Shown one piece after another: positions 24,332 through 40,462 of a DNA stretch of 60,666 nt (position 1 is the first letter of the stretch; every line of letters begins with the position of its first letter). The notes below the pieces were generated by a model. The model did not search any database and had not been told where the DNA came from. It saw only the letters and a list, made by a program, of their open reading frames with translations. The stretch spans positions 1-60,666 of the forward strand of contig JAUXAX010000008.1 in NCBI GenBank assembly GCA_030619685.1. Reading direction: 5' to 3'. This DNA comes from Dehalococcoidia bacterium (GTDB taxonomy: Bacteria > Chloroflexota > Dehalococcoidia > SZUA-161). Both the position numbers and the translations under genes were made by a program.

Positions 24332-25678
24332 TTATGCGGTTGCTCCTTTCTCAATCATGTCCTCAACCGTCCGCTTCGCCTCCTCCAGAAGCTGCTTTGC
24401 TTTCTGCCGCGCCCAGCGTGCATCAGTGATCAGTTGGACTATCTGCTGCCGCGCCTCTACAGGAGGTAATGCGATTGGCATCCTCAGCAAGTCAACAGTC
24501 GAGATGGCCGGATACATCGAAGCGGACGTCTTCAGGTCCAAAATCTCGCAGATGATAGGCAGCCGCAGGAAAACAAGAAGCACCTCAGGCTCGATAGCCC
24601 TCGGTTGTAGGACTGCGAAACCAGACGAACACACGAACCCATCCTGTTCGGGTTCGATAAATGCCGATAGGCGACGAATAGGACGTACAGTTGAGGTGAT
24701 AACGTCATTACCACGCACAACCCAGGTCGCCCGACTTGGGGCATCTTGGCCCATTAATGTTTGGCTGCTTGCGTGTCCGTTCGCATCTAGGTCGCTGATT
24801 TCGATGTAATCAAAAGATTCCACCATGTTTGGCTTGAAACGGTCTTTCCTAAGCTTGGCCACATCTGCAATCTCCTGCCCCGACTGCCCCACCAACGCCA
24901 TTGCGCGCTCATACTTGGGCTGGAAATGCTCGGCATCAAGGCGGTTGGCCTCCTTGGTCTTCTTGAAGGCCACGGTGTAGCAGAGTTGGTGGTTCAAGTC
25001 GAGGTCTTTGAAACCCAACTCATCCAAAAGGAGCTGCTCAGCTTGAAGGTAGAGATGGTTGGAATCTTTTTGTTTCTGTCTGGCTTGCTGGACAAGGTTT
25101 TCTAACTCAGTCTGTCTCTCCACGGGAATCTTCGGTATCCTCAATTGGCATATTTGATGCGAATTGAGGTATTGTTGGGCATTTCCTGTGACTAAGCGCC
25201 TAATTTGAAATTGCCCCCAGTAAGTGGACAGGAATACAGCTACATATGCAGGCAGAAAGTCGCTGGAGATAATATTCACTCTCGCAATGTTTTGGTTTAT
25301 GTTAGCCTCTGCCAGGTCCGATGGGGCGATTGCAACTTGCCCAATAGTAGCACCTACAGCCGCAAGCAGCACGTCACCCGGCCCAACCGCAGATTTCAGA
25401 TTCTGCCTATGAAATTCGTTAGTGCAATAAGTCAGCGATGGTATATCAACGCTTAACAGCGCAAAGTTTTGCGAGCGGATGAATGGAACGCCGTTTTGCT
25501 CAAAGACTCCACCCATTGGGGTAGTGCCATAGGCTACCTTCCCTATTGCCCCGATTTCGGAGTAGCCGATGTTTTCAATATGTTTAGCCCATTGTACGTA
25601 GTTAGGCTGGTAATACTCGGCATCCAGCCTCATTGCACTTTCGAGTTGCGACTTCCAAACAATAGAGGTTTGAGCCAT
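24332..25678 (-). CDS. hsdS: Restriction-modification specificity subunit (HsdS)
   Basis: A 448-residue specificity subunit with two target recognition domains separated and closed by long helices. The first half has LDAEYYQPNY, PFIRSQNF, GDVLLAAVGATIGQ and LNSHQICQLRIPKIP. The second repeats this order (LDAEHFQPKYE, DYIEISDLD, GNDVITSTVRP, STVDLLRMPIALPP). Two recognition halves predict a bipartite DNA target. The start is ATG 25678, four bases after the methylase stop behind GGAGGGG; the frame is open to 25747, but that part overlaps hsdM. It is the last gene of the RHH-methylase-specificity operon. Confidence 0.92.
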   Translation of the reverse strand: MAQTSIVWKSQLESAMRLDAEYYQPNYVQWAKHIENIGYSEIGAIGKVAYGTTPMGGVFEQNGVPFIRSQNFALLSVDIPSLTYCTNEFHRQNLKSAVGPGDVLLAAVGATIGQVAIAPSDLAEANINQNIARVNIISSDFLPAYVAVFLSTYWGQFQIRRLVTGNAQQYLNSHQICQLRIPKIPVERQTELENLVQQARQKQKDSNHLYLQAEQLLLDELGFKDLDLNHQLCYTVAFKKTKEANRLDAEHFQPKYERAMALVGQSGQEIADVAKLRKDRFKPNMVESFDYIEISDLDANGHASSQTLMGQDAPSRATWVVRGNDVITSTVRPIRRLSAFIEPEQDGFVCSSGFAVLQPRAIEPEVLLVFLRLPIICEILDLKTSASMYPAISTVDLLRMPIALPPVEARQQIVQLITDARWARQKAKQLLEEAKRTVEDMIEKGATA

Positions 25679-25682
25679 TACC

Positions 25683-27557
25683 CTATCCCCTCCAGAAATC
25701 GAGCCCCTGGTCTCGGGCAAACCGAATGAATGCTTCAGCAATATCATCTAAGTCATGCTCAACCTGCCGCTTGCCGTTCTCATCCAAGAGGTAAGAGCCA
25801 TCAGGGGCCTTCTTGAAAACATAACTCCCGCTATTGTCCTTGCCCGGCTTCTCCGAGGCAGCCATAAAGATCGGGTAATCACTGGTAATCTCGTCTTCAT
25901 TCCGCCACTTGTGTAGGAAGATGACGCTGGTCTTGGTGCCAGTGAAGCGCTTGAAGGTGTTGACATGCAACCCCACGATGGCGAGAACCCTGGCCTTGTC
26001 GCCTACGAAGTTACGGACATACTCAGCGTTTGTGTTGTTGAGGTTACCCTGGGGTGAGACAATAGCCATCCTGCCTCCGGGCTTGAGGAAGCGCAGACAG
26101 CGCTCAATGAAGAGGACATCACGAGTCAGCCTGTTTACCCTGTTGTGTTTAGTGCTATCCCCCTTATATGCGAGGTCAAAGGTGCCCAGAATCTCCGGCT
26201 GTTTTATTTCGCCAGCAAATGGGGGATTGGTCATCACCACATCAAATTCGCCATCATAGATAGCATCTACCAGGCCATCGGTGCGGTTTTTCCACTCTCT
26301 TGGGTCAAGAGAGTTAACCCGATAAACATGGGCTTTGCCATCACCGGCGATAAGCATCATAGCTTTAGCAACACGGGCAAGTCTCGGATCAAAGTCAATG
26401 GCGAAAAGCTTGGAGTTGGCATACTGGACTTTGTGCGCCTTCCAGTCAGCGCCATATTTTGGCTTGAGGTAGCGCTCCGTAACCCAGTTGAGCGTGTGGA
26501 TCATAAAGCCGCACGGGCCGCAAGCAGGGTCAAGGGCTACCTCGTCAGGTTCAGGATTAAGCATCTTGACGCACATCTTGACCACCTGGCGAGGGGTGAA
26601 GAACTGTCCTTTGTCTGGCTTCTGCTCCGGGTTAATCATGTACTCAAAAGCAGCGTCTATGACATCAAGGTCGGTATCGAAGAACTTCTTGGTCTGAAAG
26701 GCGGAGGCTACGGTCACCAGCGCTTCAGGGGTAAGTTCTATCCTGTCGGCATCGAGGAAGATACCAGGCCAAGCATCTTTTGCCTTCTTGAATAGCCCAT
26801 CCAGCCTTCGGTGCTGTTCCTGGGGTGTAGCCGTGGTGGTGCGAAACTCCATGGTGTCATTATCGCCCTTATGGAACTCATCCCATAGCTTGGCGAAGAC
26901 GAGGGGGAAGATAGCATCGAAGGCGCTCACCCCGGCGTTGGCCAAAACGGTATTCTCCAGTTCCAGCACCATTTCCTTCAAGTCGTGAATGGGTTCCAGC
27001 TCGGACTTTCTGATCGGAGTCTTTACATCGTCCAAACCTTCGTTGACTGCAGGTATCCGCTTGAGGGTTTCAAAGAGGTTGGGCTCGGTTCGGAGTTGGT
27101 AAACTTCTTCGTTCCCGTTGATCCACCCGCCGTAGTAAACGCCTGTAGCGTTCATATAGGAATGAAGTTGCTCCAGCCCGTCTTTGCGGAGAGGTTTCTT
27201 AACCTCGATGATAATATAGGTGTTCTCCTTGCTGTCTTCAGCGTAGACCACTATGTCGGCCTTCTTGCTGGCATAGGTTGAGCCCATCTTTATGGGAACC
27301 TCTACGTCGAGGCGCTTCAGCGGGTAGTGGAGGTCGTCGGTGAGCTTGTTGATAGTAAGCTGGCGGATGACTTCCTCTGGCTTGGCAACCTTCTTTTTAT
27401 TGGAGACTGGACATTTTATAGAGAACTTGCCGTCCTCCTCGGAGATGTTCAGTTTTGCCAGCTGCTCAGATGGAAAAATCTTAAGCCCGTGCTTTACTTC
27501 AGGGTCCTTGAAAATCAGGTCGATAATTTCATCTCTGGTTTTTGCCTGGCTTACCAT
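25683..27557 (-). CDS. hsdM: Nuclease-N6-adenine methyltransferase fusion (HsdM-like, BcgI-type A subunit)
   Basis: A 624-residue protein. Residues 60-160 match the N-terminal nuclease domain of type I R subunits, with KADIVVY (Asp101) and IIIEVKKP (Glu118, Lys120) giving a PD-(D/E)xK site. Residues 300-560 are the gamma-class adenine methylase: GQFFTPR, motif I DPACGPCGF (usually DPACGSGGF), and motif IV NPPF at 444-447. The helical HsdM N-domain lies between. No HsdR translocase gene is present, so cleavage probably depends on this fused nuclease with the separate S subunit, as in BcgI-like type IIB enzymes. The ATG follows GGAGG, two bases after the regulator's stop. Confidence 0.88.
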   Translation of the reverse strand: MVSQAKTRDEIIDLIFKDPEVKHGLKIFPSEQLAKLNISEEDGKFSIKCPVSNKKKVAKPEEVIRQLTINKLTDDLHYPLKRLDVEVPIKMGSTYASKKADIVVYAEDSKENTYIIIEVKKPLRKDGLEQLHSYMNATGVYYGGWINGNEEVYQLRTEPNLFETLKRIPAVNEGLDDVKTPIRKSELEPIHDLKEMVLELENTVLANAGVSAFDAIFPLVFAKLWDEFHKGDNDTMEFRTTTATPQEQHRRLDGLFKKAKDAWPGIFLDADRIELTPEALVTVASAFQTKKFFDTDLDVIDAAFEYMINPEQKPDKGQFFTPRQVVKMCVKMLNPEPDEVALDPACGPCGFMIHTLNWVTERYLKPKYGADWKAHKVQYANSKLFAIDFDPRLARVAKAMMLIAGDGKAHVYRVNSLDPREWKNRTDGLVDAIYDGEFDVVMTNPPFAGEIKQPEILGTFDLAYKGDSTKHNRVNRLTRDVLFIERCLRFLKPGGRMAIVSPQGNLNNTNAEYVRNFVGDKARVLAIVGLHVNTFKRFTGTKTSVIFLHKWRNEDEITSDYPIFMAASEKPGKDNSGSYVFKKAPDGSYLLDENGKRQVEHDLDDIAEAFIRFARDQGLDFWRG

Positions 27558-27559
27558 CG

Positions 27560-27757
27560 CTACCGCCTCCTCTTTGATTCCCCAGATGTCCTCTTCTTGG
27601 GCGGTTGCTCCTCGACCGAATATTCTCCCAGGCTCTCGGCGATCAGCTTGGCTACGTACTCCCGCATGGAGGTGTCCTCATAGACGCATTTCACCTTGAG
27701 CTTCTTATAGATTTCGTCAGGTATCCTTACGTGGAGTTGCTTTTCCTCGTCCTTCAT
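27560..27757 (-). CDS. Ribbon-helix-helix regulator of the R-M operon
   Basis: A 65-residue protein starting MKDEEKQLHVRIPDEIYKKL. The beta-strand KQLHVRIP followed by two helices (DEIYKKLKVKCVYED, then MREYVAKLIAESL) is the ribbon-helix-helix fold of CopG/Arc-type repressors. A basic tail (KKRTSGESKRRR) follows. It is the first gene of the operon and ends two bases before the methylase ATG. A palindrome sits on its own promoter at 27783-27798, which fits autorepression and control of methylase/nuclease timing. Alternative upstream Met codons exist, but this start matches the fold. An antitoxin role is possible, but no toxin gene is adjacent. Confidence 0.78.
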   Translation of the reverse strand: MKDEEKQLHVRIPDEIYKKLKVKCVYEDTSMREYVAKLIAESLGEYSVEEQPPKKRTSGESKRRR

Positions 27758-29188: not shown

Positions 29189-29208
29189 CAACCTAAATAC
29201 TCAGGTTG
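29189..29208 (+). terminator. Weak intrinsic terminator after the GT4 gene
   Basis: CAACCT (29189-29194) and AGGTTG (29203-29208) form a 6-bp stem with an 8-base loop, followed by only a short TTTG. The stem is AT-containing and the T-run poor, so efficiency would be low. Confidence 0.3.
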
Positions 29209-29247
29209 TTTGAGGGAGAAGTAAAAAGGGCGGTTTTCATCATCGCG

Positions 29248-29285
29248 CTTGCGATATTCTACTGCGATATGTATAGTAGTGCAAG
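29248..29285 (+). repeat. 38-bp duplicated element, copy 1
   Basis: A 38-base sequence from CTTGCGATATTCTACTGCGA to GTGCAAG, 35/38 identical to 30974-31011 in the same orientation. It contains a TGCGATA direct repeat 13 bases apart, and its ends CTTGC and GCAAG are inverted. Copy 1 lies 90 bases before the HEPN-like gene. It could be a shared operator/promoter or the ends of a 1.7-kb inserted cassette. Confidence 0.75.
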
Positions 29286-29374
29286 GAGTCTCGCTGGCAT
29301 TCTACGGGAGGTCGTCTGAGGCTTGGATCTACCCAGCTTATTTGAAACGTAAGCTAAACAGGAGGATTAGCGCC

Positions 29375-29830
29375 GTGGAAACGCCAAATCTGTCTCAACA
29401 GCGTGCGGAAGTTATTGAGAAATTCATCAATCTTGAGTGGATAATCAATGCGATTATTTCTCAGCATTACTTCGGCAAGGTTCGCATCGACTTCATTTTA
29501 CAGGTTCTGTATGACGAACGGTGCAGCTTCAGTCTCAAGCGTGAGGTCTTGAAGAAAATCGTACCGACACTTGACCAGATGCAGATTGAAAAGCTGAATC
29601 GTCTAAACAACATTCGTAACTACTTTGCTCACACAGGACAGCAGATATTCAATACCGCAAAGATCACTCCAGGTGAGAGCGATGTGGGCTACGTTCCAGA
29701 CCCACGCAATTTAGATAAGGTGATTGATTTCACACAACTCTTTGAGGAATTCCAAAAGACGGAACCCAGCGTAACCAAATACCTATTTGATGTATTTATT
29801 GAACACGGTGGGGAAGCTGTCGAAGGATAG
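29375..29830 (+). CDS. HEPN-like protein of unknown function
   Basis: A 151-residue, mostly helical protein. The segment LNNIRNYFAHTG has R81-x4-H86, the R-x(4-6)-H motif of HEPN-fold RNases, placed near the end of a long helical array as in HEPN toxins and effectors. The rest (EKFINLEWIINAIISQHYF) is not recognised. I chose GTG 29375 because GGAGG sits nine bases before it and the N-terminus then begins cleanly; the frame is open from 29249, but that part covers the 38-bp repeat. The gene is much more AT-rich than the backbone. HEPN assignment rests on the motif and helical character only. Confidence 0.62.
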   Translation: METPNLSQQRAEVIEKFINLEWIINAIISQHYFGKVRIDFILQVLYDERCSFSLKREVLKKIVPTLDQMQIEKLNRLNNIRNYFAHTGQQIFNTAKITPGESDVGYVPDPRNLDKVIDFTQLFEEFQKTEPSVTKYLFDVFIEHGGEAVEG

Positions 29831-29933
29831 CGAGAGCAGTTTCGGATCATGGTAGAGGTGAGAGCGGTGAGCCTACGATTGCAGAGATTTTCATACCGCT
29901 TTGCTCGGTCGCAAATTTCTCAGTTTGAAAATT

Positions 29934-29955
29934 CCCTGCTTGGCTGCAGGGTTTT
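29934..29955. terminator. Intrinsic terminator between convergent genes
   Basis: CCCTGC (29934-29939), a 6-base loop and GCAGGG (29946-29951) are followed by TTTTGCTTTCTT on the plus strand. The other side has AATTTTC on the minus strand, so it may stop both the HEPN-like gene and the convergent 315-residue gene. Confidence 0.6.
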
Positions 29956-29976
29956 GCTTTCTTAATTTGATGGCAT

Positions 29977-30924
29977 TTAGCTTGATCCTGACCACCTCCC
30001 AGACATCACATTTGCTTCAGCTTGTCTCCAAAACATGTCGTAGTTCTCTTGGAGCAGCTTCTTCAATATTCGCTCCATTGTTACAACAGGCACAGGTGTA
30101 TAGGCAGCCATGCTCATTACAATTGGATCGGGCAACAGCACGTTCATGGAGGGATTATTAAGCCATTTGTTTATTTCGTCTTCACTTGCTCCCTCTATCA
30201 CTGGGAAAACCCTTGACCAGGGTTGGAGTCTAGCGTAACTCACCTTTTTTGTGATTATGTTTGATTCAGCACGACTGAGATGTTTTCCACCACGAATGCT
30301 CATCCGCAACGTGCCTTCCAGTCGAAATATCTCCTCCAAGATTTCTGCCTTGGAAACGTCTGGTTTCGTTTCCTCTTCTTCGGTGGCCTCTCTACTGGAA
30401 AATGGAGTGCTCAATGGTTTGCTACAGACTATCTCTCTTATCCCTTCAAAGCTTGATGGGGAAATAGCGTAGGTAGCCAGCCGATTCTTATATGAATTCA
30501 TTAGGTTTATGGCTTCACTCTCAGTTAAACCCTCCTCCTCCTTGAGTTCGTCCACTGTTATTCTCCACAATCCGTCACCGATAGCTTGGTTCTTTGTAAT
30601 TGGATAACCCCTGTGTGGAAGTGAGTGCCATAGTTGGATAACCGCTGCTCCGTTGAGCCATAGGAACTTGTGTTGGTCTGGGTTTGTATACTTCGAGAAC
30701 TCAGATGCTGCTGACAGTAGTGCATTTGCAAGTAGCACATAGGCATCACCTTCCTTTTGGTCACTTTGTATTGAGATTTGGCAGAGCCGAACAACATCTG
30801 CGCACGCCTTTTGTGCGCTTTCATCATCACCCTGCAGTAGGAAATTCTGGCGTCGACGCCAATGCTCGGCAGCTTCATTGAATAGCTTGCCAGCAGACCT
30901 AGCTTGACCAAATCGCTTCCACAT
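29977..30924 (-). CDS. Unrecognised 315-residue protein, accessory segment
   Basis: A soluble protein with no clear family. Residues 1-110 are helical and look like a TPR-type array (AGKLFNEAAEHWRRR, DAYVLLANALLSAASEFSKY). The central part has an acidic stretch (EATEEEETKPD). The C-terminal third contains a further helical region with SMAAYTPVPVV. No signal peptide, membrane segment or catalytic motif is visible. ATG 30924 has a GGAGG site about 12 bases upstream. The gene faces the HEPN-like gene, and its start lies 50 bases from the second 38-bp element, which it shares with the divergent membrane protein gene. Confidence 0.62.
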   Translation of the reverse strand: MWKRFGQARSAGKLFNEAAEHWRRRQNFLLQGDDESAQKACADVVRLCQISIQSDQKEGDAYVLLANALLSAASEFSKYTNPDQHKFLWLNGAAVIQLWHSLPHRGYPITKNQAIGDGLWRITVDELKEEEGLTESEAINLMNSYKNRLATYAISPSSFEGIREIVCSKPLSTPFSSREATEEEETKPDVSKAEILEEIFRLEGTLRMSIRGGKHLSRAESNIITKKVSYARLQPWSRVFPVIEGASEDEINKWLNNPSMNVLLPDPIVMSMAAYTPVPVVTMERILKKLLQENYDMFWRQAEANVMSGRWSGSS

Positions 30925-30973
30925 TATGTATCACACCTCCTTCCCTCTCGCATGATCTCTTATAGATTATTAA

Positions 30974-31011
30974 CTTGCGATATTCTACTGCGATAAGTAT
31001 ACTACTGCAAG
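30974..31011 (+). repeat. 38-bp duplicated element, copy 2
   Basis: Same sequence and orientation as 29248-29285 with three differences (positions 23, 29 and 32 of the element). It sits in the divergent gap between the unknown 315-residue gene and the membrane protein gene, 26 bases before the latter's ATG. The right part AAGTATACTACTGCAAG contains the palindrome AGTATACT. Confidence 0.75.
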
Positions 31012-31036
31012 ATTTGTATTTGAAGGTCACAAAGGC

Positions 31037-31696
31037 ATGTTTGAGCTTGAGTGTTTATTGAAGTCTGGCGCAACGGTAATCAGCCTCGATATATTAGCAG
31101 GTCTTCTTATGGCAATTAATATTATTGTCAGTAGAAGACGATATCGTAGGTTAAATACAAGAGCTAAATATTGTTTAAAGCAACTCAAAAGAGGCAAGGG
31201 TAATGCTAGGAAACAGCTAGTAATAGTAGCTACTATCATAGCCGTTATAGTTCCACTGGCGTTTATTATCCATGGTCTCATCGTAGACATACCAAAGGGT
31301 ACCCTTTCAGCATCGGAACTAGTAATACAAAGCGTTTTAACAATAGTTGGTGCACTAGTTGGAATGGGGTTTTTGATTTTCATTCTGTGGACATTGCTTA
31401 AATTCATTGAAAAAAGGCGTTATTCAGAAGTAGCTGCGATGTATGTGTTTAATGCAGTTTTCTACGTTGGGTTAGGCTTATCTGTGCCAGCGATAATATC
31501 CCTTCGCTTCATCTCAATGCCTAGTGCAGCTTTTATGGTTGGATTCGCGTTTAATAGCATGCTCTTAGGATTACTGCTTGGACTTTTTCCGCTAATGATT
31601 CGCTTGCTTGCACTTACTGATTACAGGGTAGTTAAAATCGGATTGGTAGTCTTCGTATTCAGTAAGTTTCTTCAGCTATATCAGCATTTCTTATGA
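31037..31696 (+). CDS. Unrecognised multi-pass membrane protein
   Basis: A 219-residue protein with about five hydrophobic segments: near residues 12-32, 60-82, 92-115, 136-156, and a long region 165-215. A very basic cytoplasmic loop (SRRRYRRLNTRAK, then KQLKRGKGNARKQ) lies after the first segment, predicting the N-terminus outside. No known family motif was found. The DNA is distinctly AT-rich compared with flanking housekeeping genes, which suggests transfer. Its ATG lies 26 bases after the second 38-bp element, so control by that element is likely. A link with the HEPN-like gene is a guess from the shared element. Confidence 0.66.
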   Translation: MFELECLLKSGATVISLDILAGLLMAINIIVSRRRYRRLNTRAKYCLKQLKRGKGNARKQLVIVATIIAVIVPLAFIIHGLIVDIPKGTLSASELVIQSVLTIVGALVGMGFLIFILWTLLKFIEKRRYSEVAAMYVFNAVFYVGLGLSVPAIISLRFISMPSAAFMVGFAFNSMLLGLLLGLFPLMIRLLALTDYRVVKIGLVVFVFSKFLQLYQHFL

Positions 31697-31825
31697 TAGA
31701 GGTGTCAGACGTGAGAACCACCCCACCTACGACCCTCCTTTTCGGACAGGAAAGCTCAGGGACCCTCTGAACACTTCAGCAAGACGCTCCCTGTTCTGGA
31801 AAATCCAGACTTCTCCTCCAGACGG

Positions 31826-31855
31826 TTGACTTCGTGCGTGGATTAGTTATATCAT
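31826..31855 (+). promoter_or_regulatory. Putative promoter of the DUF1059 gene
   Basis: TTGACT (31826-31831), 18 bases, then TATCAT (31850-31855). The predicted start is about 30 bases before the AGGAGG ribosome site at 31881. Confidence 0.5.
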
Positions 31856-31893
31856 ACGGGTCTATTCGCCAACGAGGGAAAGGAGGTATGACA

Positions 31894-32067
31894 ATGCCAT
31901 CGCTTAGGTGCAAGGACACAGGCGCAGACTGTGACTTTGAGGCAACAGCAGCGACGGAAGAGGAACTTTTGAAGAAAGTGGCGGAACATGCCGAGAAGGT
32001 ACATGACATGAAGACCATTCCGCCTGATGTGATGGATAGGGTTAAGAAAGCGATTAGGACGCCCTGA
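31894..32067 (+). CDS. DUF1059 family small protein
   Basis: A 57-residue protein of the DUF1059 family, small alpha/beta proteins of unknown role common in archaea and anaerobic bacteria. The family features are the opening PSLRCKDTGADCDFEA with two Cys, then EEELLKKVAEHAEKVHD, with His residues that may bind metal. ATG 31894 is preferred, seven bases after AGGAGG; the ATG at 31888 is too close to the same site. The gene stands alone behind its own promoter. Confidence 0.82.
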   Translation: MPSLRCKDTGADCDFEATAATEEELLKKVAEHAEKVHDMKTIPPDVMDRVKKAIRTP

Positions 32068-32273
32068 TACCGTGAAGGACATAGTCCTTGTGAAGCTTCA
32101 GCAAACGGCACAGTCTATTCCTCCAAGGAGCTGATTGCAAAGGCGTGGCGTAGTTTGTGCGCATGAAGCATATATCTTAGGGATTTCAGCCAAGTAAGAG
32201 CCGCTTATATGTAGCGACCATAACGACGTTGATTAGAAGAACAGGCCCCCCGTATCCCATTCCTGTGCCTCAC

Positions 32274-40060: not shown

Positions 40061-40393
40061 TTATTCCAAAAATAGGTTTTCTTCCGTTCGCCCTGAGCCT
40101 GTCGAAGGGTGATTTGCCCTACCCTTTGAATACTCGACCAAGCTGGACCAGTCTCCAGCAATCAATGCTTGCTTCTTTCTGCGTGACCATCCCTTTATTT
40201 GCCTCTCCCTGGCCAATGCATCCTCTCGAGTTTCAAATTCACAAGAATAAACAAGCCTCACGGGAAGTCTTTTGGATGTATAGCACTTGAACAGGTTTTG
40301 TTCATGCTCATACAAACGCTTTTCCAGGTTATCGGTATGACCAATGTAATAGCTCTTGTCGGCACATTCCAGTATGTAGACCCCAAAAACCAT
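40061..40393 (-). CDS. GIY-YIG nuclease domain protein bounded by dispersed repeats
   Basis: A 110-residue protein consisting of one GIY-YIG (UvrC-type) endonuclease domain: FGVYILECADKSYYIGHT is the G-Y-I...Y-I-G core, followed by the Arg region DNLEKRLYEHE and the catalytic-type Glu segment in REDALARERQIKGWSRRKK. The C-terminal residues (HPSTGSGRTEE) are read from the dispersed repeat at 40085-40109, so the repeat is part of the coding sequence. A second copy begins 13 bases before the start codon. The start is ATG 40393 (a second ATG is at 40396). The gene looks like a small mobile unit. Confidence 0.86.
   Translation of the reverse strand: MVFGVYILECADKSYYIGHTDNLEKRLYEHEQNLFKCYTSKRLPVRLVYSCEFETREDALARERQIKGWSRRKKQALIAGDWSSLVEYSKGRANHPSTGSGRTEENLFLE
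40085..40109 (+). repeat. Dispersed repeat CGTTCGCCCTGAGC...GTCGAAGGG, copy 1
   Basis: A 25-base sequence that differs in one base from 40406-40430, in the same orientation. The two copies flank the GIY-YIG gene; this one forms the end of its coding region. Confidence 0.7.
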
Positions 40394-40405
40394 CATTGCT
40401 TGTTT

Positions 40406-40462
40406 CGTTCGCCCTGAGCTTGTCGAAGGGCCCTTCATGGTTCGACAAGCTCACCACGAACG
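40406..40462. repeat. Dispersed repeat with inverted partner, copy 2
   Basis: The arm 40406-40427 (CGTTCGCCCTGAGCTTGTCGAA) is followed, after a 13-base loop, by its inverted match at 40441-40462, 19 of 22 positions paired. The whole makes a long hairpin just upstream of the GIY-YIG start on the minus strand. This is the well-known CTTCGACAAGCTCA-type dispersed repeat. Confidence 0.7.

Follow-up and report, generated by a model that had tools for sequence, protein, structure and literature searches.

The 38-nt element that occurs twice in the 60,666-nt stretch of DNA analyzed here (hereafter the window) belongs to a dispersed family that is almost wholly confined to one order of Dehalococcoidia (Chloroflexota). 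Judged from its sequence, it is a real, conserved, and clade-specific promoter-like module, whose anatomy and placement support a two-way reading. We consider it probable that it is a shared bidirectional promoter module of this clade that undergoes turnover between genes. The arguments for this are the existence of the family, its position-specific conservation, the presence of start codons on both sides, and one gene whose orthologs have what looks like an ordinary promoter. If this is true, a single standard, symmetric promoter that moves from gene to gene serves scattered genes of the lineage. Promoter reuse and the way in which foreign genes gain expression could then be tested in bacteria known here mostly as metagenome assemblies, and shared control would be predicted for dozens of neighboring genes.

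The two copies lie at 29248..29285 (copy 1) and 30974..31011 (copy 2), both on the plus strand, and are identical at 35 of 38 positions; each contains TGCGATA twice and has CTTGC and GCAAG at its ends, all as given in a preliminary description of this DNA. Their initial 22 nt are identical to each other, and this 22-mer, with up to three mismatches, is found at just two places in the whole window and at none in 100 dinucleotide shuffles, so the copies are beyond chance. A model built from sequence only, with 29 copies including the window's two, likewise found two copies and no third in the window (copy 1 with an E-value of 1.2e-14, itself being among the sequences of the model). The surrounding segment, previously described as AT-rich, is so only mildly: its GC content is 43–47% at 29–32 kb, the rest of the window being mostly at 50–60%. 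Copy 1 is located 89 nt ahead of the GTG (29375) of a HEPN-like gene, and copy 2 is flanked by divergent open reading frames (ORFs): ORF315, on the minus strand, starts 49 nt away at 30924, and a membrane-protein ORF has its ATG 25 nt away at 31037. A longer, TTG-started version of the HEPN ORF would begin within copy 1; the alignment of homologs of the HEPN-like protein fits a start near 29375.

The glycosyltransferase encoded in the window is 84–88% identical to those of genomes G261, G087, and G071 and 76–77% identical to those of G194, G117, and G102, which places the window with this group. By searching 393 genomes of the class with the 22-mer (up to three mismatches), we obtained 31 matches in eight genomes (14 in G194, 5 in G117, 4 in G071, 3 in G261, 2 in G216, and 1 each in G087, G102, and G393); the reversed pattern, used as a control, matched once in the same 393 genomes. 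With the 29-copy model at E ≤ 1e-4, eight of 18 genomes from the order contained the element, at 2–22 copies each (G194, 22; G117, 10; G216, 6; G261, 5; G071, 4; G183, 3; G087, 2; G102, 2), and ten had none at this threshold. There was no copy in G226, which is fairly close to the window (glycosyltransferase 71% identical), and among 400 phylum-wide genomes, scanned with stricter filters, G194 alone matched at E ≤ 1e-5. One good copy was seen beyond the order, in G393 (L144), 37 nt from an ATC-hydrolase-like gene; either a gene was transferred with its promoter or the contig is mis-binned. Neither the exact 22-mer nor a degenerate form matched viral contigs, the 61 nt around copy 1 matched no phage, and a 2.6-kb region matched no plasmid; a phage or plasmid origin was rejected on these grounds.

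The 29-copy alignment yields the consensus CTTGCGATATTCTACTGCGATATGTATACTAnCGCAAGAAGTC. On the plus strand it presents TTGCGA and TATAnT with a 17-nt spacing, and its minus strand has TTGyr with TAGAAT, likewise 17 nt apart. Such an arrangement is consistent with a pair of sigma-70-type core promoters that overlap in antiparallel orientation, the CTTGC/GCAAG ends then being the two −35 boxes. In copy 1, the forward −35-like TTGCGA (29249..29254) and −10-like TATAGT (29272..29277) are separated by a 17-nt spacer, as are the reverse −35-like TTGCAC (29279..29284) and −10-like TAGAAT (29256..29261). The corresponding hexamers of copy 2 are TTGCGA (30975..30980) and TATACT (30998..31003) in the forward direction and TTGCAG (31005..31010) and TAGAAT (30982..30987) in reverse. 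Both reverse −35-like hexamers match TTGACA at only three of six positions, and a consensus promoter scan picked up the forward pair of each window copy but neither reverse pair, TTGCAC being absent from its output. Promoter-like sites in the region as a whole were not in excess (6 vs. 5.4 in shuffles). Mean matches to TTGACA and TATAAT were 3.9 and 4.7 of 6 in the forward direction and 3.1 and 4.9 in reverse, and hexamer pairs on both strands arose once in 200,000 shuffles of the 38-nt consensus, a test chosen after the fact. A larger alignment has 59 rows, drawn from the window and from loci retrieved around hits with a cut-off of E ≤ 0.05; many weaker places whose loci were not retrieved are excluded. 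Conservation is position-specific (chi2 = 412, 40 df, a value uncorrected for relatedness or seeding); columns 17, 36, and 40 vary freely beside nearly fixed positions, and the central GCGA (columns 18–21) is kept in 49–56 of the 59 copies. In G261, a shortened element (L151) lacks 13 nt between the direct repeats and is reduced to a 25-nt near-palindrome, CTTGCGATATGTATACTACCGCAAG.

Because the first scan was seeded with the left half only, the right half is independent of the selection of copies. In the 27 non-window copies, a −10-like hexamer stands at the predicted place in 25 (at most 5 elsewhere among the places tested), and CAA, the complement of the reverse −35 TTG, is found at one place in 16. 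Conversely, a scan of six genomes with the right half alone gave ten places in four genomes, five of them already known. Nine of the ten could be read on the left, where TTGCG at the expected spacing was exact in six and had one mismatch in two, the ninth copy having a deletion of 13 nt between its direct repeats, and where ATTCTA was intact in five, changed to ATTCCA in one, and lost in three. None of the four new readable copies had an intact ATTCTA, as first-scan selection predicts; since the scans were seeded with ATTCTA, its near-invariance is partly an effect of ascertainment. These controls thus give the predicted forward promoter independent support and the reverse −10 less, and certain copies may work one way only.

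The placement of the copies relative to genes also bears on a two-way function. Genes were called with a simple custom ORF caller that, in the window, overlooked the membrane ORF and called ORF315 too short, and the following counts are therefore approximate. No copy among the 59 falls within a called gene. Contig or locus edges account for ten, and the 49 that could be placed comprise 28 in divergent gaps, 12 at which the reverse-side gene alone starts, 6 at which the forward-side gene alone does, and 3 in convergent gaps. Element-free gaps of at least 80 nt from the same loci (105 in total) comprise 17 divergent, 68 codirectional, and 20 convergent ones, so that copies are biased to divergent gaps (28/49 vs. 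17/105, p = 4e-7); for convergent gaps p = 0.05. Of the 59 copies, 41 have a start codon no more than 150 nt away on one side or both, including 13 with one on each side (reverse side, 33; forward side, 21), and 18 have no called start within this distance. Among one-sided copies, the start is within 118 nt in 11 of the 12 reverse-only ones and within 150 nt in 2 of the 6 forward-only ones; placement thus favors the reverse direction, whereas the hexamers favor the forward one. The preliminary description had proposed that occurrence at unrelated sites, away from any gene context, would refute its reading: the genes concerned are indeed unrelated, but in position the copies are strongly enriched upstream of start codons relative to element-free gaps.

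Evidence on turnover comes from comparisons of copies and of their flanks. An HMG-CoA-synthase-like gene of G261 has an element 62 nt upstream, and six homologs of this gene (81, 77, 77, 76, 72, and 63% identical) have none upstream, their element scores being −16 to −23 versus +42 in G261, and the best of 200 random pieces reaching −6.9. At that place three of the six, in G194, G117, and G216, carry TTGACA-17-TATAAA, as read by eye. In a similar comparison for DXP synthase, the G261 element lies 288 nt upstream of the called start, beyond the 260 nt examined. Orthologous positions in G194 and G117 are occupied by some copies, and the flanks of L106/L126 and of L116/L135 align over 1.5 kb to either side. 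Others (the L108 pair, the L114 pair, L113/L129/L133, and L125/L140) share one flank only, with similarity stopping at the element; this is compatible with a gene having been duplicated or reshuffled along with its promoter, but also with ordinary intergenic breakpoints. Similarity between copies is 0.730 within genomes and 0.720 between them (permutation p = 0.145), and being not clearly higher within genomes gives no sign of a recent burst.

Under the bidirectional promoter reading, RNA polymerase with the main sigma factor would bind the element in either orientation, as the same 38 bp would carry two complete antiparallel core promoters. The left −35 (TTGCGA) would pair with the right −10 (TATAnT), and the right −35 (TTGyr, minus strand) with the left −10 (TAGAAT, seen as ATTCTA). 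The predicted starts would point outward, approximately 35 bp apart, so that binding in one orientation should preclude binding in the opposite one. Copy 1 would drive the HEPN-like gene, copy 2 would drive ORF315 in its reverse direction and the membrane-protein ORF in its forward direction, and the same module would front dozens of unrelated genes of the clade, its placement shifting between species. The GCGA center, conserved beyond what a promoter would need, may be a regulator binding site and hints at a common regulator. The parts of this scheme that we infer are transcription either way, its mutually exclusive nature, a regulator, and the manner in which the module spreads. The fuller scenario, in which a bidirectional module spreads through one order, replaces ordinary promoters, and plugs new genes (e.g., the HEPN/ORF315/membrane insertion) into two-way transcription under one shared putative regulator, seems to us unlikely as a whole.

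Two kinds of known promoters offer a comparison. Matus-Garcia in 2012 and van Passel in 2014 reportedly described putative mobile promoters, short repeated sequences taken as promoters before unrelated genes. Such promoters are mentioned in a citing passage of PMC8049555. The element resembles them in being short, repeated, and promoter-like and in fronting unrelated genes, and near-identical promoter-like sequences do precede non-homologous genes within a single genome (G194, 22 copies with mixed neighbors). It is unlike them in its predicted bidirectionality, its presence in several species of one order, its position-specific conservation, and the lack of signs of a recent burst; the promoter difference at one set of orthologs and the one-flank pairs would suggest propagation, but within-genome homogeneity is lacking. 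The bidirectional promoters of Grainger and colleagues, according to PMC10268837 and PMC12825309, are pseudo-symmetrical DNA on which polymerase is placed in two mutually exclusive orientations, with divergent starts 7–25 bp apart, usually 18, and overlapping −10 boxes, and the chromosomal ones lie mostly between divergent genes. The element shares with these, as so described, its pseudo-symmetry and its bias to divergent gaps. It differs in that its predicted starts, estimated from hexamer positions, fall outside the 7–25 bp definition given in PMC10268837, in that two complete −35/−10 sets would be interleaved, and in that one nearly fixed sequence is repeated genome-wide. Our search of the open-access literature found no description of the motif, of a Dehalococcoidia repeat or promoter, or of regulons of this group, which is not proof of absence in print.

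Possible, but in our opinion rather doubtful, is that the element is primarily an operator: a clade-wide regulator would control a regulon by binding either the directly repeated GCGATA or the CTTGCGnTA arms, the hexamers being simply where operators sit. Operators of global regulators are conserved motifs upstream of many genes, which the element resembles, although its roughly 38 conserved positions extend over whole core promoters. The spacing of the direct repeats, which are 13 nt apart, the retention of GCGA, and the orthologous positions of some copies in G194 and G117 all suit an operator, and comparable similarity within and between genomes is expected if a shared factor holds the site. 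However, the set of genes differs between species, and the hexamers with their 17-nt spacings suit promoters on both strands. Moreover, the neighbors have no function in common. Outside the window, 60 neighbors start within 300 nt of an element; 50 of these were scanned and 35 had a Pfam family at E ≤ 1e-4, including CoA and acyl-CoA enzymes, a glycyl-radical enzyme, a sugar kinase, a nitroreductase, DXP synthase, TIR, GmrSD with HNH, MarR, and others, with no common theme and no recurring regulator gene among the 50. By domain, three of the 50 are defense-like (NucS_C, GmrSD with HNH, and TIR), and at 15 loci elsewhere that encode HEPN-like homologs there was no element near the gene, the one weak match (E = 0.023, L005) being 4 kb off. 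A defense-specific operator was rejected on this basis. The proposal of a shared operator for the three window genes survives in part: a shared promoter- or operator-like sequence does lie 25–89 nt from all three start codons, but it does not mark a coordinated defense unit, as the family precedes unrelated genes across the clade.

We regard as improbable that the element is a dif- or attC-like recombination or cassette-boundary site at which genes are joined and exchanged. Such a site would account for the pairs that share one flank up to the element, but breakpoints are intergenic anyway, the L106/L126 and L116/L135 copies are collinear on both sides, and placement beside start codons is not predicted. 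The attC core motif contains GTT, which the consensus lacks. The window copies do lie within an insertion, but are not its limits. In the relative G071 (L088) the site is empty: 98 nt separate the glycosyltransferase gene from the Zn-ribbon gene directly after it, which LemA and M48 genes follow. At this point, between the first two of these genes, the window carries an accessory insertion of ∼3.07 kb (about 29193..32264, edges placed where similarity to the empty site stops). Within it are four ORFs (HEPN-like, ORF315, membrane, and DUF1059) as well as both elements, of which copy 1 begins 55 nt inside the left edge and copy 2 is more than 1.2 kb from the right one. This empty site led us to reject the earlier suggestion that the two copies bound a 1.7-kb cassette.

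More improbable still is a REP- or MITE-like dispersed repeat without function that is tolerated in intergenic DNA; the element is short, repeated, intergenic, and imperfectly palindromic, with a copy number that varies among genomes, but its strongly position-specific conservation, its enrichment beside start codons, and a similarity no higher within genomes all argue against it. Least probable is an RNA element (a leader hairpin) acting post-transcriptionally, as CTTGC can pair with GCAAG but copies serve genes on both sides, the fold z-scores of the 38-mers are just −1.1 to −2.0, and no Rfam family matched, this weak folding and lack of a family having led us to reject RNA structure.

The insertion encodes the HEPN-like protein (29375..29830, plus strand, 151 aa), the predicted forward target of copy 1; ORF315 (29977..30924, minus strand, 315 aa, no assigned function) and the membrane-protein-like ORF (31037..31696, plus strand, 219 aa), the predicted reverse and forward targets of copy 2; and a DUF1059 ORF (31894..32067, plus strand; domain scan begun at 31882), which has no element of its own. 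The HEPN and membrane genes were found in none of the 18 genomes of the order, by searches that, lacking a positive control, are uninformative on their own, and an ORF315 homolog was found in one; this distribution favors a gain in the window's line, although a single empty site cannot prove direction. The ORF315 homolog, in G102, is 53% identical over 169 aa, has one internal stop, and lies in a different neighborhood; a weak match to the right half of the element, 60 nt upstream (E = 0.19; 0.03 in a second scan), is only suggestive of an association. A search of limited sensitivity found no homolog of the membrane ORF except itself.

The hallmark of HEPN domains is an R-x4-6-H motif, which the gene at 29375 encodes as R-N-x-F-A-H, with R81, N82, F84, A85, and H86 invariant across 51 aligned sequences. 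The Pfam HEPN profile gave E-values of 0.03–0.07, short of the cut-offs, and the PADLOC Csx1/Cas13b profiles gave 0.002–0.007. The structure model is helical and confident, and Foldseek returned nothing at E ≤ 0.001, the best match being MtlR and the next Csm6. From the motif alone, we infer a putative RNase activity. Homologs are encoded at 15 loci of other genomes (L001–L015), three of them titled Dehalococcoidia or Dehalococcoidales, and a family scan of viral contigs gave no confirmed relative. This small family is patchy, occurring in archaea, candidate-phyla bacteria, Acidobacteria, Verrucomicrobia, and Dehalococcoidia, which suggests horizontal transfer.

Elsewhere in the window, Type I-like restriction-modification genes are found at 24332–27757 (a methyltransferase with an HSDR_N-like N-terminus, a specificity subunit, and, upstream, a 65-aa ORF with no PADLOC match). 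A second short repeat, TTCGTTCGCCCTGAGC...TCGAAGGG, occurs in direct and inverted copies at 40079–40109, 40400–40430, and 40441–40462, and a string resembling it lies upstream of a G194 gene (L175).
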